A stretch of 64,000 nt of DNA from NCBI GenBank assembly GCA_028386065.3, contig JAKUCV010002756.1, forward strand, positions 79,342 through 143,341. The letters are read 5' to 3'. The notes under the pieces were generated by a model. The model saw only the letters and a list, made by a program, of their open reading frames with translations. It made no database searches and had not been told where the DNA came from. This DNA comes from Turnera subulata (Eukaryota > Streptophyta > Magnoliopsida > Malpighiales > Passifloraceae). Below, in pieces: positions 8,730 to 44,640 of the stretch (the stretch's first letter is position 1; every line of letters starts with the position of its first letter). The translations under genes were made by a program, and so were the position numbers.

Positions 8730-10110
8730 TGAGTAAATGACATATTTAGGACCTGTACTATTTGGAAAGTACTCTTTGGGGGTCTGTACTTTTTATGGTC
8801 CCTTTTACGGGTTCATACAATTATTTTTCGTCCCGTTCAGGGGTCTGGGGCAGGCACCCTACTGACGTGGACTGCCCGGGCAGTACGTGCACCATACGCG
8901 CCCGCTTTCCCGCCTTTTCGCTTACGTGACGCGCGTGTCCATGGTGGATGGTGGGCCCACTTATACTATTTTAATTCTGCAACTTTTTTGTTAATTACCC
9001 AATTTCTTTTATGCGATTTATTTTAACGGATGAAAAAAAAAACTAAACCCACAGTACCAAAACGCTGTGCAGCAGCTGCAGCAGTAAAATAAATCCCAAA
9101 TTTCACTCGCTAATACCAATAGTCCACCATAATTATTAATAATTTTCCTTATGCAAGTTTATACCAAAGAAATTTTGACCCATTAATTATGAAATCAGTT
9201 CATCAATATTTTCCTTTTTTTCTATTCTTTTCTTCCTCACCCATTGGCCGTGTGTCAGTTTTTTTTTAATCAACATCAACTTTGTGTATTAATTATTGAG
9301 TCTCTAAAAAAAAAAAAGTATTAGTTATTGAATTTGAACAAAACTCGCCTCGTAGAATTAAAAAAAAAACAATAGAGTATACATGATGTTTTAATTAAAA
9401 AGAAAAAGAAAGAGAAATAAACCAACCCTAACCATCTTCTCTCCCAACCCAGCAACCATGGTCCCAACCATCTTTCGTCTCCATCCTTATTATCACCCAC
9501 GGTTTTTTCAACACCTACTTTCATCTCCATCCTTATCATCACCCATGGTTTTTTCAACACCTATAGTTTCCTCAACCGTACCAAGACTACAAACCACATA
9601 ATCAACAACTCTCTTTTGATTCAAATCAACAATTCTCATTGTCAAATTTTCAAAACACAGAAAGCAATTCATCCACCTCATCTCTTCCACTTCCTCCTCC
9701 GTTCGTGATCGCCACCACCAAACCAAGCAGCGCCACTAATTCCTTCTCCTTACAAGTGCCACTAATTTCTTCTCCTTACGAACGCCAACCAGCAAGATGC
9801 CTCCAACAAATCTTGGTCTGACTAGTTGTGGGACTGGTTGGGTCTGCTGCATTTTCGAGTTTGAGGGTTAGTGTTCGTGCAGTGGAATGGGTTCGAGTTG
9901 GGGATTTGGGGGTTAGGGCTCCTCCCCTCTAAATTGGGGATTTGGGGTTGGCACTTTGAAATTTGGGGATTTCTATCGATAAAGGGGTGAGGGATTTCAG
10001 GTTTTGGGACTCTTTGGTTGTTGCTACACATCGTTTTGGTATTCTGGGTTTAGGTTTTTTTTTTCCATCCGTTAAAACAAATCCCATAAAAGAAATTGGG
10101 TAATTGACAA
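8730..10110. mobile_element. Truncated TIR element inserted in the 5' LTR
   Basis: Foreign to the LTR. It begins GAGTAAATGACATATTTAGG, similar to the start of the foldback element at 51582. Bases about 8984-9040 are an inverted copy of about 10049-10110 (ATTACCCAATTTCTTTTATG against its complement), so these are inner parts of long TIRs. The counterpart of 8730-8984 is missing on the right, so the right end has been lost. An internal direct repeat of about 60 bp (about 9470-9563) contains GGTTTTTTCAACACCTA. Short open frames inside (for example 9639-9821) are not recognisable. Probably a non-autonomous Mutator-like element. Confidence 0.6.
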
Positions 10111-10112
10111 AA

Positions 10113-10303
10113 AAAAATTATTGAATCAGAATTAATGCCATATGATGTGAATTCCTATTAATGTTTAGTGGAGCATTAAGGCATAGTGGAGACAAGAATA
10201 GACTCAAAAGCATAGTCATGATGGATAATGCATGATGATGTTGGCCATTGTCTCATTAATCTATGCATTAATTGTGTGTATAAATAGAGGTTGATAATCA
10301 GAT
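10113..10303 (+). repeat. Repeated copy of LTR bases 8545-8729
   Basis: About 185-190 bp of LTR, including the TATA box (10279-10288), occur on both sides of the TIR element. A normal transposon TSD cannot be this long, so recombination or template switching is implied. Confidence 0.8.
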
Positions 10304-10629: not shown

Positions 10630-10642
10630 TGGTAGCGGAGCC
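10630..10642 (+). other. PBS-like site TGGTAGCGGAGCC
   Basis: Follows the 5' LTR. It resembles the initiator tRNA-Met primer site TGGTATCAGAGCC with two changes. The same 13-mer is next to the LTRs of Copia 2 and the TRIM. Confidence 0.65.
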
Positions 10643-10930: not shown

Positions 10931-11496
10931 AACATCGATATTTGTTAGACAAACATCGATGTTCACATGAAGATTTGCCTTGGCCAAATCTTGTAAACAT
11001 CGATTTTGTGAGATAAACATCGATGTTTTCATGAAGATTGGTTTTGGCAGAATCTTGAAACATCGATGATGTGAGACAAACATCGATGTTCTCATGAAAA
11101 GTGGCCTTGGCAAAATTCTCAAACATCGATGTTCATGGATTAAACATCGATGTTCAAGAGTTCTGTCAAATTGGTTTGAGATTCCAGAATTTTCAAACAT
11201 CGATGTCTAAGATCAAACATCGATGTTCTTGAGTTCCAGAATTCTCAAACATCGATGTTTAAAAGTTAAACATCGATATTTCAAAATACTGCCAGAAGTC
11301 TTGAACTTTCAGAACTCTCAAACATCGATGTTTAAGAGTTAGACATCGATGTTCTTGAGCTCTGCCAAATAGTTTGGAGTTCCAGATTTTCAAAACATCG
11401 ATGTTGAAGTTTAAACATCGATGTTCTTGAGCACTGCCAAGTAGTTGGGAGAATCAAATTCTCAAAACATCGATGTTCAAGGTAGACATCGATGTT
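10931..11496. repeat. Palindrome array A: nine pairs of AACATCGATGTT
   Basis: Eighteen copies (some with one mismatch) start at 10931/10952, 10996/11016, 11059/11079, 11122/11143, 11196/11216, 11248/11269, 11321/11342, 11394/11414 and 11466/11485. Within a pair the starts are 19-21 bp apart. Pair starts advance by 65, 63, 63, 74, 52, 73, 73 and 72 bp. The gaps share TGCCAA/TTGGCA-like words and CTTGAG. The array lies in the untranslated leader between the 5' LTR and gag. No coding content is intended; open frames across it are a by-product of the repeat. Confidence 0.95.
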
Positions 11497-18311: not shown

Positions 18312-19624
18312 TTACATAAATTCGAATTCCAGGTCTTGTGAATACTGAGTGCCACTGGTGAAGTAAGTCATTATTGTTGCAGGCACTACTCTCCGTGGGA
18401 ACGTGTATCGAAATTTCAAGGACTTCAAGTTGCGGAATGGAGAAGTTTGATTCTCAAGCAAACCACTCTCCTCAAGTGCCTATAAGACATCAAAATATCC
18501 AAATAAGTCAATCGCTTTAAGAAGAATTACTCCAATTTTTTTGGAGTCAACAGGTAAGTAGGGGTAGAAAAAGCATGAAGTACCTTAAGGTTTATAACGA
18601 GAGATTCCACGTTGCAAATCCCTTGCAAAACCTTGACCGACCTCTGACGGTATGTGTGGAGCCCTCCACGGACAACATTCAGGTCCGCGTGTCGTAGTGA
18701 AGGGAGATTAATCGACCAAAAATCATTAACCTCCCCGTTGTAGCGGGTAAAATAATACTCAAAAACCTTAAGGTTTGGCAAAGAAAGTTCCAGTAGTCCT
18801 ACATCTGTCACATTGTGAAATTTCAAGCTAACAATCTTGGGTCCCGTAATCTTCAGGTTTTCTCCTCCGAGTCTGCACCAGACGAGGGATAAGTTGGTGA
18901 GATTTGGGAAGATAATGAAAATATCAAAGCATCCTCGGAAAAAACCTGAAGTAGCTCGTACATTTTCAAGATGCAAGCTTGTGAGTCTAAGCATGGAATG
19001 ACCAAATGACGAGCGGCGAATATAAAGCAGTTCCAGGTGCAGGATTTCCAGAGTTGAAGAACCCGACGACAGGTCGGGCAGAAAGGCTGTTGCACGAAAG
19101 GCGGGAGAACCGATGACGAGTTCCCGTGCGCCGCGAGACAGGGCGTAACTGGTGAGCTGTGTTAACATTGTGGTGTCGAGACCGGCATAGTACCAGAATC
19201 TGTCTACCCTGCAATTCAGGCGGCGTTGCTCGGTCAATACGGCGCGCACAAAGTTGTGTAAGGATGAGTCTCGGGGGAAAGATTTGCGGTGGAAGGAGAG
19301 GTCTTGGACGGAAGTCCAGAGATGTCTCCACCGCTTGGAAAGTACAGAGGTCTGAACGGCGTTCTTGGTATCGTTCAGGCATACGAGGATATGGAGGAGT
19401 ATGCCGTCCGACAAGTTGCTCAGCCTGTCCGGCAATAAGGTGTTAGGTTCAGGTTTCCAGGATGTGAATTTTTTTGTTTCAATTGAGTAAATCCAGGATT
19501 TGATTTCTGAAGAAGAAGACGTGATGGGTTTCTTTATGGGTATTTGGCTAATTGTGGATGGCGGATGGCGATGGGGAGTGTTGACTTGGCTAGTACAAGA
19601 GGACTTAGATGCCCAACCACCCAT
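18312..19624 (-). CDS. F-box/FBD-type LRR protein, two exons, intact
   Basis: A predicted substrate receptor of an SCF (SKP1-CUL1-F-box) ubiquitin ligase. The best model is exon 1 at 19624-18584 and exon 2 at 18479-18312, joined in phase 0 across a 104-bp GT-AG intron, giving 402 residues. The F-box spans about residues 64-105 (LPDRLSNLSDGILLHIL ... SVLSKRWRHLW). Leucine-rich repeats characteristic of the F-box/FBD group follow (LTSLHLENV, FPNLTNLSLVWCRLGG, LSLPNLKVFEYY). Exon 2 encodes the end (LKSLKFRYTFPRR). Reading past the exon 1 donor would give a shorter, less conserved tail. The start ATG is followed by GGW. It is the only F-box gene here without a lesion. The substrate is unknown. 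Confidence 0.85.
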
Positions 19625-19639
19625 ATTTTCTTTGTTTCA

Positions 19640-33190: not shown

Positions 33191-34826
33191 TGTTAATAAA
33201 GACATTTTTTTTCAAAATTTTCTCCCCATTTGTCCCTCTATTTCATTTTCTTCCCTCTATAGAGCCAATAATCAGCCAAGAACCTTGAGAATGTTTGTGA
33301 CCAGTGATAAAGGCTAGGATGAAAACCAAAGGGTGCAATCAGAAGGTGTAATCCATTGAACGCCCCACCAATTGCAAATGCATTGCCAAAGCAACCAAGG
33401 GAACTTACACTGGAGAAAAAGATGAGATATGGTTTCAATGTGTTGCAAACAGAATGGGCAATTAGCATTAGTTTCAGGAATGATATGGAATAAGATGTCT
33501 ATGGTTGGTATGCCATTCATGAAGATCAGCCATAGGAAATGTTCAATTTTAGGTGGAAGAATAGAATGCTAGACAAAGGGGATAGTACTAGGAGGTTGTG
33601 AGGATTTGAGGAGAATATTATACCTTGATTTGATGCTAAATCCTTTTTGCACATCAGGTGACCAGACGAGGCAATAAGAAGTAGATGAGGATAAAATGCA
33701 GTTTTGTAAGTCAGCAAGGAAAAGAAGACACACCTCTCTTTCCTATGAGTACAACTTTCTGCGTCCTGGCCATCGACCGAGAGATAAGAATGTTTGTTAT
33801 AAAAGTCAGGAAGGGAAGCATCAGGGGTCAAGGAATTACAATAGATGCGGGGGAAACAAGAGTGCAGGGGACCGAAGAAATACCATTCGTCGGACCAGAA
33901 CCTGATATTCTCACCAGAACCAATACTGAGACTGATATGTTCCACAAGAGAGGAGGAAGTTTGACTAGTAGAGCTTGAAGAGAGAATCATATTCATCCAG
34001 ATAGGAGAGGACTTTGCTAAATTAAAAGCAGGCTTAAGATGATTTGAGGGCAAAGCGCATTTGTTTTTGAGTAAATTGAAACATATAGCTCTTTGCGAAT
34101 TGACATACCTCAAGTACCATTTAAAAAGGAGGCTATGGTTCTTTGCAAGAAGACACTCGATTCCAAGCCCTCCAAGGGCTTTTGGTTTGGCAATTTTGGA
34201 CCAAGCTACAAGGCAAATTTTGAGGTGATTAGAGGAGCCGTGCCAGAAGAAGTCTCTCTATAGCTTTACGATCTTTTTTGCCACCGTCGCTGGGACTTTG
34301 AATAGAGAGATGAAGTATAATGGGAGTGAGGATAAAACAGAACCGATAAGAGTAACTCTTGCCGCAATTGAAATAAATTTTTCCTTCTATGATTGTAGTT
34401 TCTTCTTGATTTTCTCTATGATTGGGTTCCAAGGCAGACCAAGATAATTGAGGGGGAGAAACTCAACTTTGTAGTGGATTGCAAGGGCCTGATCATGTAC
34501 ACAGTCTGAATCAATATTGATGCCCACTAGTTCACTTTTGTGGAAATTAATGCTGAGACCAGACATGAGTTCGAAGCATCAGAGAACTCTCTTGAGAATG
34601 AGGAGGGATGCAAAGTTTGCATTTGAGAATATTTAGGGTGTCGTCAGCGTATTGGAGAAGGGAGGTTAAGGTGCCATGAATGGAAAAATCTTCAATAATC
34701 CCCTGAGATGTAGCCTGAGAGAGCATGGAATTGAGACCTTCAGATGCGATAATGAAAAGAAAAGGTGAAAAAGGGTCACCTTGTTTAAGGCCTCTAGTCA
34801 TCTCAAATTCTGGGGACGGTGAACCG

Positions 34827-36013
34827 TGTTAGAACAATAGCCCTTCGCTAGAGGGGGGGTGAATAGCGATAATCGAATAAAAACGAAATAAGCAGGAATT
34901 AAATGCGGAATTGAAAGAATGAAGGACAAGCAATTTATCCTGGTTCACACACACTCTACTAGTGTGGCTAATCCAGCCCTTCAAGTCTCACTTGAAGATT
35001 TCACTATCTACGTTAAGCTTACGGGTGCTTAACAAACCGTTACAACCTAGGAATTCTAGTCACAAGAATCCTAAACCNNNNNNNNNNNNNNNNNNNNNNN
35101 NNNNNNNNNNNNNNNNNNNNNNNNNNNNNNNNNNNNNNNNNNNNNNNNNNNNNNNNNNNNNNNNNNNNNNNNNNNNNNNNNNNNNNNNNNNNNNNNNNNN
35201 NNNNNNNNNNNNNNNNNNNNNNNNNNNNNNNNNNNNNNNNNNNNNNNNNNNNNNNNNNNNNNNNNNNNNNNNNNNNNNNNNNNNNNNNNNNNNNNNNNNN
35301 NNNNNNNNNNNNNNNNNNNNNNNNNNNNNNNNNNNNNNNNNNNNNNNNNNNNNNNNNNNNNNNNNNNNNNNNNNNNNNNNNNNNNNNNNNNNNNNNNNNN
35401 NNNNNNNNNNNNNNNNNNNNNNNNNNNNNNNNNNNNNNNNNNNNNNNNNNNNNNNNNNNNNNNNNNNNNNNNNNNNNNNNNNNNNNNNNNNNNNNNNNNN
35501 NNNNNNNNNNNNNNNNNNNNNNNNNNNNNAAACATCGATGTTTCAAATGGGGAACATCGATGTTATGCCTAATTTTAAAAACAACGGTCACTAGAACATC
35601 GATGTTTGGGATGCCAACATCGATGTTATTTGCCTACTGCCTATTTTGAAGAATTGTGCAGAGGCAGGAACATCGATGTTTAAATCCACAACATCGATGT
35701 TCATGGCTTCGAAAAACATTTTAATGCTTGGAAATATGTTATGTTATGCATGATCAAAATTTATCTTATTTTGAGCCATTGTCCTAGAAGAGTTGAGTGT
35801 TATACCTTGTACAATTTATGGATCTAACTCTTCTTTCTTGGCTCTTCAATTCTTGTGCTCATTCATTTTGATCCTTTGCTCTTGAATGGTTTATTGTGCT
35901 TGAGGATTGGTTTGACTTCATTTCTTTTTGCTTCTTCTTTGTCATGATCTTGAATTGGTTTGTCAATTATCAAAACCTGTAATAAATGAATCATGAAGAC
36001 ATAGGTTCTAACA
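34827..36013 (-). repeat. 3' LTR of the SIRE-like element (with gap)
   Basis: Matches 41591-43350 at both ends. The middle is replaced by 452 N. The sequence from 35530 carries three palindrome pairs (35531/35553, 35595/35616, 35669/35690) equal to the last three pairs of the other LTR. Confidence 0.9.
35078..35529. other. Assembly gap (452 N)
   Basis: The flanks match positions 41840 and 42868 in the other LTR, which are separated by about 1027 bp. The gap covers the palindrome array and is probably about 575 bp too short. Confidence 0.9.
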
Positions 36014-37030
36014 ATTTCCCCCTTTTTGATAATGACAAACAATTAGAAGTATATGCCAATATTAGAGGTATATGTTAACACAATAATTTCAATTTATGAT
36101 TCCCCCTATCTAGATGCATATACTTCTTCCTATCTAAATGCATATACTTCTTCTTATCTTCCCCCTTTTGGCATTAGCAAAAAAAAATGATGATGCATAT
36201 ATTTATTTTTCCCTCTTAAGGTATGACTTATAATACCCCCTAAGTCCATGTATATGGCAAGGTATTTGAAAACAAAACATAAAGAATAACGAGGATAAGG
36301 GTTTAGAAAAATGGTTCCTATTTTGCTTCAATCTGAATTGATCAAACATCGATGTGTATGATAACAACATTGATGTTGTTGGTTCCACCATATTTTTGTT
36401 CCCCCTGTCTTTTGGCCATAGTGAGGGGTACCTGCCAAACATAGTTAGACGAGCCTCGGGTGCTCAAGTTAGCAGAGAGAATACACTAGTTTTAGTAAGG
36501 TAAAACATGTGTAACACTTTTAAGACATAGTAAGGAAGCCTCTCTGCCACCACAAAACATTTTCTCCTTGTCGTAAATGCACCGGGCTCGTGAAAATGTC
36601 TTGTCAGTTAGACTTTTGTTGCCTCTGATGTCCGACTAATCAGACAGTAAATCCCCGTGATGAATCAATAATTAATTCGATGCCAAGATTTTCAAAAAGC
36701 AGATGCTTGATTATCGGAAAAATTGGCGGTTAGTAATAAATGAATTGGCAAAGTTAGCCTGTAATAAATGCATGAATAAAGGCATCAAAGGAAGGAGCCA
36801 GAGTTCACAAATAATGCATGATCGATGTGACTCAAAAAACGTATAAACAATTGCATCCCGTATTTAATTAAAGGTAAGACGGGTATTGGTGTGTGCTGTG
36901 GCAATAATTTCAAAGATAGTAATCTTTGAAGGGACACAACCAGTTGGCACCTAAGTGTAGAGTAGTCACCCTTTTGTAGTTTTCCGGCAATAGGTGCGGT
37001 TCAGGCTATGAAACAGTGATAAACAAATTT
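36014..37030 (-). other. 3' internal region of the SIRE-like element
   Basis: Non-coding on both strands. It includes the polypurine tract at 36014-36027, a short direct repeat of ATGCATATACTTCTTC near 36113-36160, and one more palindrome pair at 36345/36366 (one and two mismatches). No gene recognised. Confidence 0.55.
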
Positions 37031-37032
37031 GC

Positions 37033-37040
37033 TATAAAAG
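37033..37040 (+). promoter_or_regulatory. TATA box before the chimeric ORF
   Basis: TATAAAAG lies about 96-103 bp upstream of the ATG at 37136 on the plus strand, in a context without other long A/T runs. A plausible core promoter; no transcript evidence. Confidence 0.5.
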
Positions 37041-37199
37041 GCAAGGCATTGATTAGTCAATAATGAGAGGAGTAGAAGTAAAGAAAGAAAACATTTCTGA
37101 CAAAAGAGAGAAAATACAAAACCTCAGTAACAAGAATGCCTGCCCCATCCTCCGTATTCTTTGTCGAGGGAGCCTCTTTAGGAAGGAGAAACCGATTGG

Positions 37200-37208
37200 C
37201 TTATAGCT
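37200..37208. repeat. TSD CTTATAGCT, left copy (Pack-MULE)
   Basis: A perfect 9-bp duplicate lies at 39016-39024. A 9-bp TSD is the hallmark of Mutator-like elements. Confidence 0.95.
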
Positions 37209-39015
37209 GGGTTTTTGGTACGGATGGTACCCATATTTAAGTGTTTGAGACAATCGTGTACCTAAAACTTTTACCGAGACAATTATATACCTGGAGTTGT
37301 TGCGGGCAGGTCAGTCAGGGGTCTCGGGCGGGGCATGTGCTGACGTCGATGCTGCCCCAAAATTGGGCAGCTGCCCGTTGCTCAAACGACGCCGTATCAT
37401 CGCAATACGACGTCGTTTTGTCGTCCACATGGCACAACATGGGCCTTACTATTGTCCCAATCATTAACCCGGTTCTACCCGGTAGAGGTTCAACCCTACC
37501 CAAAAACCGTTTCATTTAAAAAATATAAAAAATATAAAAAAGGAAAAGATAAAGATTTAACATTATTACATTTAAAACAAGAAAAAATAAAATATTTAAA
37601 TGATTGGAGGAAAAAGAAACAAATCACATGAGAACTTTGGCCTATTTATGTGTTTGATAAATTTTTCTCTTATTTTATTTTTTCAAAAAAGAAAAAAGGA
37701 AAGGAAAAAGTTTCAACCATTGAATTGAAATGTGCCCTGAGCTTTTTTTCTTATTGTCCCTTGAACCCTAAATTACCATGAACAAACCTAATAACATTTG
37801 TTTAAATTATTATTTAGGCACAAATCAAAAATTGCAATAGGAACAGGGAAAAAAATATTACATTTATTAACAAAGCCAAACAAAAATACAATTGAGAAAA
37901 AAAAAATCCATCGAACTCGAAAGCCGGCTCTTCTGGGGCAGCAGCACCGCCACCATGTCAGCCGTCCTGTCCTCTACCTCCTCCTCCTCATTCGTCAACA
38001 TCATGCTCGCCATCAACGAGAAGAAAACAAATCAGACCTCCCCGTACCCGAGCCCTCTGCAACCCCATGGTCAACTCAATCCCCTTCCCCTTCAACACCG
38101 GCGACAACACCGCCTCAACTCCCTGGCCCGCCGACGTCACCCTCATCTCCTCCTCCTTGCCCTTCTTCGACCGCCTTAACTCCCTCATCGGACCTAATTT
38201 CACCACCTCCTCTGCCGTCAAGAAGCCCTCAGCCTCTCCCTCTCCCCCCTCGATGTCCTGCTGCGGAGAACTCCCGCCTTCAAGTACTCCCCCACGGTGA
38301 AGGTGCCGGTGCTGCTGCCCCAGAAGAGGCCGGCTTTCGAGTTCAATAGGAATTACTCCGCGATGGCTGCTGCCGCGGCGGCTGCGGACTCGAACAGTGA
38401 GGATGAGGAGGACGAGGAGGAGGAGGTGGTGGTTGGCGGTGCTGGGGCAAGGGCAGGGAGGGAGAGCTGCGAGGAAGAGGAGGAGGTGGTGGACGAGGGG
38501 ATCAAGCGTTGGCGAGGGCGATAGAGCGGTTCGAGGAGGTTTATCAGAGGGTGGAGACGGAGAAGCGGAGGCAGATGGTGGATTTGGAGAAGCAGAGAAA
38601 AAAAAGAAAAAAATAAAGAAAGTTGGTGAGGAAGAGGAAAAAGAGAAAGAAGAAGAAGAAAGAAAAAAAAAAAGAAGAAAGAAAGAAACAAAAAAAAGGA
38701 GGTGAACCATTAAAAAAATAATTGTTTCGGGTCGATTATTTTTTCGGTTGAACCTCTCAAATCAAGTAAGAACCGGGCGGGACCCACACCTGCCACGTGG
38801 ATGCTAAACGACGTCGCATCGTGGTGAAACGACGTCGTTTTGAGTTACGGGCAGCAGCCCAATTTTGGGCAGCTTCCAGGTCAGCAGATACCCAGCCCGA
38901 GACCCATGACTGTTCTGCCCGTTAAAAGTCCAGGTACATGATTGTCTCGAGAAAAGTTCTAGGTACATGATTGTCTCAGACCATAAAATATGGGTACCAT
39001 CCGTACCAAAAACCC
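37209..39015. mobile_element. Pack-MULE with about 220-bp TIRs
   Basis: A 1807-bp element beginning GGGTTTTTGGTACGGATGG and ending with its complement. TIRs extend about 220 bp, through AAACGACGTCGT-type segments at both ends (about 37209-37440 and 38790-39015). It has perfect 9-bp TSDs and no transposase, so it is non-autonomous. GC-rich coding sequence in the middle derives from a trihelix transcription-factor gene, which makes it a Pack-MULE. Confidence 0.92.
38067..38605 (+). pseudogene. Captured trihelix transcription-factor fragment
   Basis: Three segments, in order, match the layout of SIP1/ASIL-type trihelix proteins. LISSSLPFFDRLNSLIG (38142-38192) is the segment after the trihelix domain. 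An alanine/acidic stretch (NYSAMAAAAAAADSNSEDE, about 38351-38407) follows. Then AIERFEEVYQRVETEKRRQM (about 38519-38578) with VDLEKQR is the start of the C-terminal coiled coil. Frames shift between segments, and a 1-nt loss near 38505 breaks the last join. Sequence is GC-rich, unlike its surroundings. The DNA-binding trihelix itself is not seen. No function expected as a protein; antisense or siRNA effects on the parent gene are possible. Confidence 0.72.
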
Positions 39016-39639
39016 CTTATAGCTTAATAAATGAGCATGAGGATGCACTGCCAGAGGGACGTGGACGGATTCCTCGATTGGTCTTCGTAACTGAAGTCTA
39101 TTCGACCCGGTTCTTTGTCACTCCTATGGAGGAGACCATCTACTTAGAGGATCAAAATTCCCTTCGAACATCCTACTATGGCACATCTAATTCAACTATG
39201 TTCTTCATTTCTGACAGGTTTCAGGAGTTGCTGTTGGAGCCGTCTTATCAAGCTCTGAGCGAGGGCAGTTACTACCAAATTTCAATGACAGCTCGGAGCG
39301 TTCCTCGAGTAGGGGTCATTCTGCCGACTTGGCCAAAGGTTCGTCTTCTGGTATGGAACTGCAGAGGGATCACAAGACGCTCCCAAGACTTTGTCCGGAC
39401 CCTGCGAGACTTGAAGAACCAGTATAAACCAAATATGGTTCTTCTAACAGAGACTTGCTGGCAGGCTGGAGTAAACCATGGAGTTATTCCTCTACGTTTT
39501 CCATCAGCGCACCGGTTCGAGCTTTCGGGTCAGAACAATTCTGGTGGAATGTGGTTCGCATGGAACGATAGCGTTAGGGTTAACATAGTTAACACTCCTA
39601 CTAGTTTTACTGTCACAGCTGTTCCAAATCGTTAGAAGC

Positions 39640-39985
39640 AGATAATAATTGTAATGAATATGTATAATGTAATTCTGCGTTTCTTGTGATTGTAAAATAT
39701 ATGATGTAATCGAATGTGTGTATGTTTTAAGATTTAGCAGCTGTACTCAGTCTTTATAATCAATAAAAGTAATTGTGCTTTGTGTATGATATGAAGTTCT
39801 TCCATGTGAATGTTCATCAAGCTAGCTAGTGTTTCTAAATTTGATCAATTGTGCACTAACTATATGCTTGACATAAATTGAAAGAAATCTGAATAATCTT
39901 CCTGACTTATTTAGTCATAAGTATGCTACCTAAATTTTCTAACTTCATGTGTAAAATTAACTTGCTGAAATGACAACAATGGAGG
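39640..39985. other. AT-rich tail after the chimeric ORF
   Basis: Contains AATAAAAG at about 39762 on the plus strand, a plausible polyadenylation signal for the ORF ending at 39635. No coding sequence. Confidence 0.4.
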
Positions 39986-40300
39986 AACATCTATGTTCAC
40001 AATTTACACATCGATGTTTTTAACCATTGGATAGAAATTTTAAACAGCTTGGTAAGAGAAAACATCGATGTTTATTAAGTGAACATTGATGTTTAAAAGC
40101 TACTGAAAAAATAAAGTTCTTACCGAACATCGATGTTTGATACAAAACATCGATGTGTATGCTTGATTTATGGCTTGGCAGTTCTCATGGGAACATCGAT
40201 GTTTTCTAGACAACATCGATGTTTTTCAGCTACTGGTTGAAAAACAAAAGTGAGCTGGAAGTCATGGAACATCGATGTTGCCAAAATGAACATCGATGTT
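39986..40300. repeat. Palindrome array B: five pairs
   Basis: Starts at 39986/40007, 40061/40082, 40126/40146, 40192/40212 and 40268/40289, with intra-pair distances of 20-21 bp and pair steps of 75, 65, 66 and 76 bp. A few copies have one mismatch. It lies inside the SIRE-like element, downstream of the protease relic on its coding strand. Confidence 0.93.
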
Positions 40301-41330
40301 ATCATCTTTTGATCCTTGCATTTCTGCCGTAATTGAACAAGTGTGGCCACATTCAAGAATTTGGATGCTTCTTTGGTTATTTGCTTGGAGCATCCGCAAT
40401 CAAGGTACCAAAGTACACTTGATGCCTTCAAGCATACCTGCAAAACAAATCAAAGGGATTTTGGTACCCAAATCTTTTTGGGTCCTTGAGAGTGAGTAGA
40501 TGCATGCTGATAATGAGCTTCTTGTTGTGTCCAATGCCAATGTCTAGTGAAGCACACAGGAGCAATATGTCCTATCCTATTACAATAATGGCATATGACA
40601 TTTGGGTTGTGCATTCTCCTAGGTTGGTTATAGGTACCATATTGCCTATGTTCATGCAATCTATTATACTTGTCTTCCCTAGGTAAAATCTTGTTTTCCC
40701 TAAATTGAGTCACATATTTCCTAGGTTTAGTAAAATGAGAACTTTCATTTTTAGCTCTGTGTACATGTGATCTTGCAACCTTAGCATTTGATCTAACATT
40801 GTAGGCATCTAATTTAGCATAGTGAGCTCTTCCACTACTTGCATTTGGTTTGGCATTTTGTGCATATGACCTTCTATGTTGAATATGTGCTCTTGTGTCA
40901 TGAACATGTGATCTAGTATGATGAGTAGAAGATGAAGCAACATGTTTATGTATCTTAGCTTTAAGCACAGCAGGTTTGACATCATTTAACACATTTGATG
41001 AACCTAATCCTTCTTTTTGTGTTGGACTCCTTTGTTGTCCTAGAAGAAGATTAAGACCATCTCTACCATTTGTGAACTTTTCTAATGTATTCTTCAAATC
41101 ATCAATTTGAGACCTAAGAGATTCATTCTCTATTCCCAATACAACACAAGCACATACATTTGAGGATATCTTCTCGTTAAGTTCATTGTATGATATATTG
41201 AGAGCATGCTTTTCTTCTTCAAGCCTATCAATTTTACTTGTTAACTCATTCTTATCCTTTGACAAATTCTCATTGTCATTTTCTAAGGCTATAATTTGTT
41301 TTTTACAAATCATCTTGCAAAAAACGAGTA
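40301..41330 (-). pseudogene. SIRE-like gag end and protease relic
   Basis: The frame 41361-40450 (from about 41320) has a Glu/Lys-rich coiled-coil segment (IIALENDNENLSKDKNEL), a His/Arg-rich region and a zinc knuckle CHYCNRIGHIAPVC. It ends GPKKIWVPKSL, the usual join between gag and protease in SIRE/Maximus-type Copia elements. After a stop, 40443-40310 continues with LWYLDCGCSKQIT, the Copia protease site with DSG changed to DCG. Integrase and RT do not follow; array B does. A large internal deletion is implied. Confidence 0.8.
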
Positions 41331-41590
41331 CAGCAAGGCGGGGTAGAACAAAGAGACACAAATCCTAGTTGGTCATTCCGAGCAGACCTCACAAGAGCAT
41401 CAGCCACTAGATTTCCCTCCCGGTAAACATGTGAAAATACACAAACCCCAAAGGAAGCAGCCACCATCCTAATATCCTTCATCAAAGACCAAGCCTCAAG
41501 ACGACTAGGAAGTACACCATTAAGCACATCAATCAGTTCTTTCTGATCCGACTCAAGAATAACTCTACTAGCACCCACCTGAGTCGCAAG
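41303..41590 (-). pseudogene. RNase H (RVT_3) fragment next to the 5' LTR
   Basis: The minus-strand frame reads GASRVILESDQKELIDVLNG, then SHVYREGNLVADALVRSA, the signature of plant RVT_3-type RNase H domains (ESD and N-x2-AD). It abuts the LTR end directly, where a PBS is expected, and runs into the gag frame. It must have come from a different element or gene. The N-terminal part of the domain is missing. Confidence 0.72.
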
Positions 41591-43350
41591 TGTTAGAACA
41601 ATAGCCCTTCGCTAGAGGGGGGTGAATAGCGATAATCGAATAAAAACGAAATAAGCAGGAATTAAATGCGGAATTGAAAGAATGAAGGACAAGCAATTTA
41701 TCCTGGTTCACACACAGTCTACTAGTGTGGCTAATCCAGCCCTTCAAGTCTTACTTGAAGATTTCACTATCTACGTTAAGCTTACGGGTGCTTAACAAAC
41801 CGTTACAACCTAGGAATTCTAGTCACAAGAATCCTAAACCTGAAAGTTCAAGTCACATGAACTTCAGCTCTCGTGCTTGAAGATACCTCACTTCAAGACT
41901 TTCCACACAAGAAGATATACACCTCTTCTTGTGAATCTAACCAAGGGAACTAACCTCCCTCAAGGTGTATAACAACACAATAATCACTCAAACAAGAGGT
42001 CTTTCTCAAAGAGCAGATGTGAGTGTACAAATGAAGCTCTAAAAGGCAACTCTCAAATCCTCAATAGGATATTGGCTCAACAAAGATTGATTTGAATGTA
42101 TGAGATGAATGCATGTAAGTAGAGAGTTGATTGGCTTTGAAACATAGCCAAGAATGCTTAATTTGTAGCTCTGAAAAGTTATGGAGTCGTTTGAAATCCA
42201 CCCAAAAACAGCCTTAAACAAAATATAGTGGGTGCTGAAAAGTTGTCTGCTATAACGGCAAAACATCGATGTTTTCACTTTAAACATCGATGTTTTAGCC
42301 AGCAATTTTAAATTATTGCTCCAACGGCTAGTAGAACATCGATGTTGCATTTGAGAACATCGATGTTTTCATACTCAACATCGATGTTCTCCAATTCAAC
42401 ATCGATGTTTTTTATCTTCGCAAAAATATGATGAAAAAGGGTTTATGCATGAACATCGATGTTGGAAAATGAAACATCGATGTTTTTTGGCTTCGGCAAA
42501 ATTCATTTTGAAATCAATTATCAGAACATCGATGTTTCTAATAGAACATCGATGTTTTTCCGCTTCTGCCAAATTTTGGAAAACCTTGAAGAAATCACAA
42601 CATCGATGTTTTAATGACAACATCGATGTTTTGACCAACGGTCACAAGAACATCGATGTTTTATAATCCAACATCGATGTTGTGATCGGGCAGACCATTT
42701 TTAAGTGCAACGGTCAGGAGAACATCGTTGTTTGGGATGCCAACATCGATGTTCAGACCTTACTGCCGACTTTTGGAAAAATGCTTGAAATTAAGAACAT
42801 CGATGTTTTTATCATAACATCGATGTTATTTTGGCTCGGCAAAAATCCTTTTAAAGTGACTGGAAAAAAACATCGATGTTTCAAACGGGAACATCGATGT
42901 TATGCCTAATTTTAAAAACAACGGTCACTAGAACATCGATGTTTGGGATGCCAACATCGATGTTATTTGCCTACTGCCTATTTTGAAGAATTGTGCAGAG
43001 GCAGGAACATCGATGTTTAAATCCACAACATCGATGTTCATGGCTTCGAAAAACATTTTAATGCTTGGAAATATGTTATGTTATGCATGATCAAAATTTA
43101 TCTTATTTTGATCCAATGTCCTAGAAGAGTTGAGTGTTTTACCTTGTACAATTTATGGATCTAACTCTTCTTTCTTGGCTCTTCAATTCTTGTGCTCATT
43201 CATTTTGATCCTTTGCTCTTGAATGGTTTCTTGTGCTTGAGGATTGGTTTGACTTCATTTCTTTTTGCCTCTTCTTTGTCATGATCTTGAATTGGTTTGT
43301 CAATTATCAAAACCTGTAATAAATGAATCATGAAGACATAGGTTCTAACA
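41591..43350 (-). repeat. 5' LTR of the SIRE-like element
   Basis: A complete 1760-bp LTR with TGTTAGAAC/GTTCTAACA ends, the reference for the gapped copy at 34827-36013. It contains palindrome array C. Confidence 0.92.
42262..43038. repeat. Palindrome array C: 24 copies of AACATCGATGTT
   Basis: Starts at 42262/42283, 42335/42356/42377/42398 (four in a 21-bp series), 42452/42473, 42525/42545, 42599/42619, 42649/42670, 42721/42742, 42796/42816, 42869/42890, 42932/42953 and 43006/43027. Pair steps are 73, 42, 75, 73, 74, 50, 72, 75, 73, 63 and 74 bp. Only 42721 has an internal mismatch. Gaps share CGGCAAAATT, TGCCAAATTTT and CAACGGTCA words. It is located within the LTR. Confidence 0.97.
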
Positions 43351-44640
43351 AACCGTTGATAAGAATAAAGAGTTTAAAGGATTTGAGACAGGCTTGGATC
43401 CATGAAATCCAAGTATTACTGAAAGGCATGGAGGACTTGAAATAAGTATTCCCAGGAGATAGAATCGAAGGCTTTCCGGAAATCGAGTTTCTAGATAACA
43501 ACTGGTTTTTTGAATTTTTTCAGATTGTGAACTACCTCGGTCGCAAGCAGAACGCCATCAAGTTTTGATCTTCCTTCTACCAAAGCAGCCTGATAGTTGT
43601 TGATGATCTGCGGGAGAACGGGTTTGAGTCTTAAGGAGAAAAATTCGGAGATGATTTTATAGATCCCACTAACAAGTGTGATGGGTCTGAATTCGTCGAA
43701 AGTTTCAGCTGAGGTCTTCTTTGCGATCAGAGTAATGTAGGAGCAGTTGAGACCTTTTGGGAGGGAACCTAACGTAAAGAAATCATTGATCAAATCAAAT
43801 AGATCTGCCTTAATTAGATCCCAACAACGTTTATAGAAGAGGAAATTGAATCGGTCGGGGCCGGGAGCCTTCTCATTGTCGCATGCCCAGATTGCAAATT
43901 TCATTTCCTCCTTGGATACATGCTTTTCAAGATTATTAGCAGAGATAAGATCAATCTTTGGGAATGGGATGTTTCCAATAAAAGGCCTATCGGATAGAGG
44001 TTCACTGTAAAGACGAGAAAAAAATTTTGCAGCTTCTGTTTTAATCTTGTGGGGGTCCTCTAAAAGTCTCGTGCCAACTTGGATGGAAGTGATTTTATTT
44101 TGTCGGCCTCTTGCACAAGCCCATAGGTGGAAGACGCGTGTGTTTCGATCACCGAGTCTGAGCCACTTGATGCAAGATTTTTGCCTCCAAGTGATAGCTT
44201 TCAATTTAGATTTTGATTAATACTCGTCCTTTTTTCCAAGAAGGTTGTCGGATTCATGTGGAAGGAGAGGTCTTCATTCAGAAACTAACTCCAGAGCTTC
44301 AATGTCCCTCTGTAACTGCAAAACTTCTTTATCAGAGTTCCCAAAAAACCGTTTTATTCCAATGAGCGAGTTCCTTGCGCAGTAGACTTATTTTCTAAGA
44401 AGATTGATCGAAACTATGAGGGAACTGAGATTGACTCTACTCCATATCTCCTGGATTACTTTATCAAAGTCAGGAAAAGACCACCATGCCGAAAGGGCTC
44501 GGAAAGGCTTAAAGCCCTAATCAATAGTTACTTGGGCCAAAACGAGGGGCCAACGATCTGAACTATTCCTGAAGTCCGACTTGAGACTAATAGAAGGGAA
44601 GTGAAGACTAAGATCACAATTAAGTTGGTTTCTAGCTGAT

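Follow-up and report, generated by a model that had tools for sequence, protein, structure and literature searches.

A helix-phased palindrome array in a Sirevirus-type LTR of Turnera subulata and the recurrence of its 12-mer in two other Copia lineages

Why does one long terminal repeat (LTR) of a Copia retrotransposon hold two dozen copies of a single palindrome, and why does the same 12-mer recur in a different Copia lineage nearby? The question was raised by an earlier note on a 64,000-nucleotide stretch of Turnera subulata DNA (hereafter, the window), which described 24 copies at 42262-43038 with one mismatch among them. On recounting, the LTR at 41591-43350 carries 24 copies of AACATCGATGTT, 12 bases each, of which 23 are exact and one, at 42721, has one mismatch. 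The run of four (42335, 42356, 42377, and 42398) was borne out, and the steps between pair starts (73, 42, 75, 73, 74, 50, 72, 75, 73, 63, and 74 bp) were reproduced exactly. Both arrays that the note had named, this one and array A, which sits in a leader and belongs to another Copia lineage, are real, but the window contains four, including those at 35531-35701 and 39986-40300. The division drawn between them, LTR here and leader in array A, holds for the two named arrays and is not exclusive, since the element with the LTR array also has an internal one. Within the window, exact copies of the 12-mer number 46, versus 0.006 expected from base composition, and across 23 LTRs the count ranges from 16 to 25 per LTR, with the palindrome itself unchanged. 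A coding repeat was rejected, as steps of 20, 21, 30, 42, and 51-54 do not hold one frame.

The LTR belongs to a whole LTR-retrotransposon insertion on the minus strand at 34827-43350, with the target duplication AACCG at both sides (Table 1). Its limits are borne out by the TG..CA ends and by the second LTR, which is 98.6-98.8% identical across two aligned pieces and contains an assembly gap, a run of 452 N at 35078-35529. A solo LTR was considered for 41591-43350 and rejected, because the AACCG flanks pair around the whole insertion and other bases lie on the inner side of the LTR. A predicted protein at 18530-19636 on the minus strand, several relatives of which have an F-box, matches Tsubulata_012675 of Turnera subulata (Passifloraceae) at 99% identity over 93% of its length. 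Copia elements make up 17.73% of the Turnera subulata genome in the published draft, according to the available text (PMC9862265).

Table 1. Positions of the features discussed, in window coordinates unless another stretch is named
Feature	Positions	Strand	Remark
Target-site duplication AACCG, left copy	34822..34826	.	
3' LTR	34827..36013	-	identity to parts of 41591-43350; ends read
Residual palindrome array in gap-cut 3' LTR, 6 exact copies	35531..35701	.	
Terminal polypurine tract AGGGGGAA + AT, abutting TG of the 3' LTR	36014..36023	-	
Degenerate palindrome pair in linker, one mismatch each	36345..36377	.	
Later nested insertion, ~226-bp inverted ends (83% identical)	37209..39015	.	
Internal palindrome array, 10 copies, 6 exact	39986..40300	-	
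Gag-derived open frame, C-terminal part only	40450..41364	-	similarity to L044 and L032 gag
RNase H-type piece, RVT_3 PF13456, LINE-like	41381..41587	-	residues 2-70
5' LTR, 1760 bp, TG..CA	41591..43350	-	
Sirevirus integrase signal: poly-C, 26 bp from the end of the LTR	41617..41622	-	
TATA-like place, 94-95 bp after the array; motif unmatched in the window copy	42160..42168	-	
AACATCGATGTT palindrome array, 24 copies, mostly pairs 20-21 bp apart	42262..43038	.	
Right arm of the inverted repeat around the polypurine tract; sense-strand sequence TTTTGATAATTGACAAA	43296..43312	-	
Target-site duplication AACCG, right copy	43351..43355	.	
Array A, 18 copies, 11 exact, leader of a different Copia lineage	10931..11496	+	
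Primer-binding sites	window 10630-10642; L029 2800; L030 1818 (minus); L031 2804; L032 2949; L012 3765-3780		

The gag-derived frame of the element is 65% identical over 92 aa to the gag piece of L044 and 60% over 53 aa to the gag of L032; searched by itself, it gave no gag Pfam match, and no pol was seen in the element. Directly after the 5' LTR, the RNase H-type piece occupies the place that the primer-binding site takes in other copies. The element is probably a non-autonomous copy. Based on the gag remnant, the lack of a recognised primer-binding site, and the unmatched TATA motif, we regard it as probably an inactive copy that preserves the array.

The nested insertion (~1.8 kb, imperfect inverted ends) lies within the internal region of the palindrome-bearing element. 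The equivalent place in L009 is without it, and there the two flanks overlap by 9 bases, which would fit a 9-base target duplication of the kind made by Mutator-like elements. A separate arrangement was seen in contig C5695 (L009 3084-10000 and L010 1-900), where the LTR is repeated head to tail together with the first part of the internal region; its LTRs are identical, and an RNase H-type piece follows the LTR, as in the window copy.

To which Copia lineage does the carrier belong? The polypurine tract (PPT) junction characteristic of Sireviruses, an octamer followed by AT/TG, reads AGGGGGAA-AT-TGTTAG at the 3' LTR and in relatives. Genome-wide, with up to two mismatches allowed, this junction pattern had 587 forward and 597 reverse matches (1,184), versus 0 and 1 for the control. 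The linker contains multiple PPTs: over its final 393 bp, the window element has four copies of AGGGGGAA, and L012 has five copies of AGGGGGA. An inverted repeat surrounds the terminal PPT: its left arm adjoins the tract, and its right arm, 39-55 bp inside the LTR, was detected at two mismatches or fewer in 7 of 23 LTRs and was not found in the other 16. All 23 LTRs have the poly-C integrase signal, at 26-27 bp from their end; the published signal is placed at about 21 bp (PMC2829016, available text). The published 5' junction is CA/ATTGG followed by the primer-binding site TATCAGAGC (PMC2829016). This site was not found in the window copy, in which the RVT_3 piece follows the LTR, and the junctions of relatives read ATTGG-TAGCGGAGC, two bases off it. 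L044, a relative with the LTR array, has gag and an integrase region, the listed homologues of which are Copia-type polyproteins, up to 70% identical. Given the PPT junction, the four PPT copies, the inverted repeat, the poly-C signal, and the relative L044, we therefore call the element Sirevirus-type, a label drawn from sequence features; formal membership hinges on the primer-binding site and pol.

Sireviruses are known for palindromes of their own. Bousios et al. 2010, as far as the available text goes, reported that 13 Sireviruses carry palindromic repeated motifs (RM boxes). Most of these cluster before the TATA box, in the upper half of the LTR, further copies lie upstream of an envelope-like gene, and the motifs were called Sirevirus-specific (PMC2829016). 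The array resembles RM boxes in that many palindromes (at least eight copies being the published mark) begin 200-400 bp into the LTR, here 24 copies from 313 bp, in a stretch of raised CpG upstream of TATA; the position upstream of TATA was observed in the related arrays and the CpG richness in the window LTR, and the TATA motif is unmatched in the window copy. As with RM boxes, some elements have extra copies in the linker region (PMC2829016). It differs from them in sequence, with an ATCGAT core in place of the CGG-CCG signature, in copy number (24 in one LTR versus at most 14 per 3' LTR in the published table), and in occurring also in two non-Sirevirus Copia lineages; the 12-mer arrays of the array A, L031, and L029/L030 elements thus depart from the absence of RM boxes from other Copia elements (PMC2829016). 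Paired, helix-phased spacing, found here, goes unmentioned for RM boxes in the available part of that paper (PMC2829016). Palindrome arrays upstream of the LTR TATA are, on that account, an already known Sirevirus feature (PMC2829016). What goes beyond the precedent is the sharing between lineages, the helical phasing, and the constraint on the palindromes.

Tnd-1 is a Sirevirus of tobacco. Its RM, ACAATCGATTGT, is present in 8 copies and lacks the CGG-CCG signature (PMC2829016, Table 3). Tnd-1 and the window element have in common a 12-bp palindrome, an ATCGAT core, and a PPT ending in A, the last of which is also listed for ToRTL1; they differ in the bases flanking the palindrome core, in copy number, and in host (PMC2829016, available text). 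Maize Sireviruses likewise have LTR palindrome clusters, of different sequence (PMC5311732, PMC10760457), and the maize palindrome is reported, in the accessible portion of the text, as the commonest motif also in structured Helitron regions (PMC10760457). A text search of the literature for the 12-mer did not find AACATCGATGTT as a retrotransposon motif.

The spacing of the palindromes is the first of these features. Steps within pairs are mostly 20-21 bp, and the distances cluster near 21, 31, 43, and 53 bp, which is about 2, 3, 4, and 5 turns of B-DNA. In the genome-wide listing, all 45 retained neighbour distances were 30-32, 42-44, or 51-53 bp, and none fell in the other 22 of the 31 allowed values; the vector strength at 10.5 bp was 0.80, which 0 of 20,000 uniform draws reached. 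This set comprises 45 of 50 plus-strand rows, the five dropped being those whose match ran across a further exact palindrome, a third one; an off-phase 18-bp step is present in one of the five. Eleven arrays, drawn from all three lineages, gave 69 distances between pairs, of which 65 were 30-32, 42-44, 51-55, or 74 bp (R = 0.74), the exceptions being 46, 50, 56, and 58 bp. In the 23 Sirevirus-type LTRs, 435 of 439 steps deviated by no more than 2.2 bp from a multiple of 10.5; the off-phase steps were 18 bp in two LTRs and 40 and 50 bp in one each. Distances of 34-40 bp accounted for 1,129 of the 26,357 genome matches in the range 23-53 bp, versus about 5,950 for an even spread, a count that covers one of three off-phase ranges. 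The best-fitting period was 10.7 in the eleven arrays and 10.0-10.4 in the genome listing, so the exact period is not fixed. Because arrays grow by copying, their distances are not independent; the presence of several distance classes, each about one turn apart, is unexplained by the copying of one unit.

The second feature is constraint. Between LTR copies, the palindromes differed at 430 of 23,896 sites (1.8%), compared with 1,291 of 9,945 in the short spacers (13.0%), 2,574 of 28,279 in the long gaps (9.1%), and 11,259 of 103,694 in the flanks (10.9%). These counts come from 105 pairs among 15 of the 23 LTRs, which are related and were found by mutual similarity, so that the counts are not independent. 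Since the alignment of tandem repeats can favour anchors, the comparison was repeated in ungapped form on 12 LTRs that follow a single spacing pattern; this block includes two pairs of sister LTRs. Here, variants shared by two or more LTRs occurred in 3 of 192 palindrome columns versus 36 of 300 other columns (Fisher p = 9e-6), and 8 of 491 shifted masks reached the observed value. The earlier note had set near-perfect palindromes against variable gaps, and indeed 23 of 24 palindromes are identical while the spacers differ within one LTR. It had also named, as an outcome that would count against it, palindromes evolving as fast as the gaps; the comparison was run, and they do not.

A different picture emerged from the two LTRs of single insertions. 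In five such pairs, the palindromes differed at 12 of 984 sites (1.2%), the long gaps at 16 of 1,194, the short spacers at 2 of 397, and the flanks at 98 of 4,537, the L013 share of the last (44 of 851) probably being raised by misalignment in places. The sum does not include two further pairs: L019, whose LTRs are of unequal length, and C5695, which is arranged in tandem and shows 0 differences. As the palindromes are conserved between elements and not between the two LTRs of one insertion, the constraint seems to act on the mobile lineage and not on the resident copy. A Fisher test of shared versus singleton columns in palindromes and gaps was not significant (p = 0.19), and the reading of no constraint after insertion accordingly rests on the five-pair comparison.

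The array also stands in a regular relation to a promoter motif. TATAAAT lies 94-98 bp past the last palindrome in 34 of 42 assessable Sirevirus-type LTR arrays (11-26 copies), a tally that leaves out the gap-cut 3' LTR of the window and in which L034 was counted by hand. The motif was unmatched at this distance in the other eight: the window 5' LTR, two each in C5695, L014, and L027, and one in L015. For the internal Sirevirus-type arrays, no TATA was found within 160 bp in 6 of 7; the internal array of L032 ends 84 bp before TATATAA, which is followed by an open frame (L032 7384-7998, cut by the stretch end). The single reported database relative of this frame is a Cuscuta protein with PF20167, at 47% identity. 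In array A (leader) and L029 (LTR end), the palindromes are downstream of the LTR TATA box. The array has an observed/expected CpG ratio of 1.38; the ratio is 0.69 for its gaps taken by themselves and 0.36 for the rest of the LTR.

The sharing of the 12-mer across lineages is the surprise of the case. Two non-Sirevirus Copia lineages also carry the 12-mer in its exact form, for the most part in pairs with a step of 20-21 bp, which goes beyond the published precedent. The pair pattern (12-mer, 7-10 bases, 12-mer) has 30,589 exact matches in the genome versus 15 for the reversed control, and four stretches chosen from the first contigs in the pair-pattern listing all contain Copia elements: L032 falls in the Sirevirus type, L031 goes with array A (pol pieces 71-84% identical), and L029 and L030 represent a third Copia type with the array near the LTR end. 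The search in other LTR families that the earlier note had proposed thus yielded a third Copia lineage. Its view that the carrier is not of array A's family also stands: compared between this genome's three lineages, integrase regions share 34-40% identity. For comparison, a database query with the L044 integrase listed 120 homologues, and 10 of them match it at 53-70% identity, nine of these from named plants, an orchid included. Judged from these identities, the three lineages likely separated long before the Turnera subulata genome existed.

Shared descent of the whole region, which would have made the two families one, was rejected: once the palindromes were masked, none of 24 array comparisons across lineages did better than E = 0.18. 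In 7 of the 24 comparisons, and not in the other 17, a match of 11-17 bases was better than in all 20 shuffles, which points to short words common to the gaps of the lineages. The gap word CTGCC is over-represented in all three lineages (13 versus 1.3, 10 versus 0.6, and 3 versus 0.3 expected), and AACGG in the Sirevirus-type arrays alone (15 versus 2.2 expected). The shared arrays may have arisen by exchange between lineages or by convergence, and the palindrome module may have a distant common descent. In a prokaryote collection, the same palindrome pair was found in five records (one Tannerella MAG and four contigs of one Kiruna bin), and in IMG/VR, one contig had a single pair. The prokaryote arrays (L046-L050) have steps of 21 or multiples of 21 and look like coding repeats; we take these and the IMG/VR pair to be unrelated.

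As a separate observation, at window 8731-10115, an insertion interrupts the 5' LTR of the array A element, and within this insertion 8984-9074 and 10022-10114 are mutually inverted.

We propose, with somewhat better than even confidence, that the 24 palindromes, as a phased array, are the docking sites of a dimeric DNA-binding protein that would activate the LTR promoter; a host transcription factor is its most likely identity. The array, its pairing and spacing, the TATA geometry, the constraint between elements, and the 12-mer in two other lineages are observed. The helix-phased array in the upstream half of the Sirevirus-type LTR would be bound cooperatively on one face of the helix, the bound protein would raise transcription from the LTR, and all three Copia lineages might use the same protein. 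No plant factor for the 12-mer was identified, and a text search for its letters gave nothing relevant. Against an activator at the promoter, the position of the array downstream of TATA in two lineages suits an enhancer, as well as a role in RNA; among the functions suggested in the earlier note, enhancer fits best.

A broader version, offered tentatively and with some doubt, is that one factor controls much of the Copia load of this genome and that at least three lineages have each built for themselves, or passed on, phased arrays for it. These lineages would have split before those of the flowering plants, an equally tentative point, and would present their arrays either ahead of the promoter, at the end of the LTR, or within the leader. 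If one factor is indeed involved, it would be titrated by over 30,000 exact site pairs, and the effect of this load on the factor's own genes can be asked. RM boxes were described as restricted to Sireviruses, their regulatory function untested, and the box can now be separated from the lineage. The part that is shared (the 12-mer, the 21-bp pairs, and the near-whole-turn steps) is what must matter, which makes the function testable; with 30,589 exact pairs, a single genome provides a system for weighing convergence on a host factor against the trading of a module.

In the strongest rival, the array would serve as the target for an anti-silencing protein with sequence specificity, which one mobile family encodes and other families use in trans; most predictions of this rival are common with those of the docking array for an activator. 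The protein would work like VANC of the Arabidopsis VANDAL elements, which are DNA transposons, in that dense motifs recruit the protein and methylation is lost. VANC targets are short motifs that have accumulated in tandem in non-coding regions, the repeats being extensively gained and lost (PMC5735166, available text). The arrays described here are similarly dense, placed in non-coding parts of the element, and evolving in copy number, which varies between LTRs. CpG is also kept in the palindromes, where CpG transitions account for 16 of 107 single changes, versus 12 C-to-T or G-to-A changes at the two other C/G sites, and L032 has the extra open frame beside its internal array, with the PF20167 relative. 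However, the VANC21 motifs are reported to have one orientation, to be non-palindromic and rare in other transposable elements, and to belong to a known factor (PMC5735166, available text), whereas AACATCGATGTT is a palindrome found in three lineages, and the near-constant TATA distance and helical phasing are promoter-like. We consider the anti-silencing target unlikely.

A role of the array as RNA appears improbable. Neighbouring palindromes would form 12-bp hairpins serving packaging, dimerisation, or small-RNA production; the sense array folds at -297 kcal/mol (z = -21.8 versus 20 shuffles), maize Sirevirus palindromes are small-RNA hotspots according to the available texts (PMC5311732, PMC10760457), and the array lies within the predicted transcript in the array A and L029 elements. 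Among 278 pairs, however, none of the 97 in which one or both palindromes have a single change had the compensating change in the partner, for which reason we rejected hairpins, and none of 10 two-change palindromes keeps its symmetry. Hairpins also do not explain the near-whole-turn pair distances or the TATA distance. Packaging, another function suggested earlier, is therefore disfavoured by the lack of compensation and by the phasing. A minisatellite-like repeat without function, in which slippage and gene conversion maintain uniformity, would agree with the variable copy number and with the parts of arrays that Tandem Repeats Finder calls tandem, but it is already disfavoured and very improbable, as conversion would also homogenise the 8-9 bp spacers, which differ while 23 of 24 palindromes are identical, and as the 12-mer is common to three lineages whose gaps match only in short words.

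The primer-binding site TGGTAGCGGAGC (in L029, TGGTAGCAGAGC) was observed in several Copia lineages, of the Sirevirus type and others. TGGTAGCGGAGC is two bases, and TGGTAGCAGAGC one base, off the published TATCAGAGC site.
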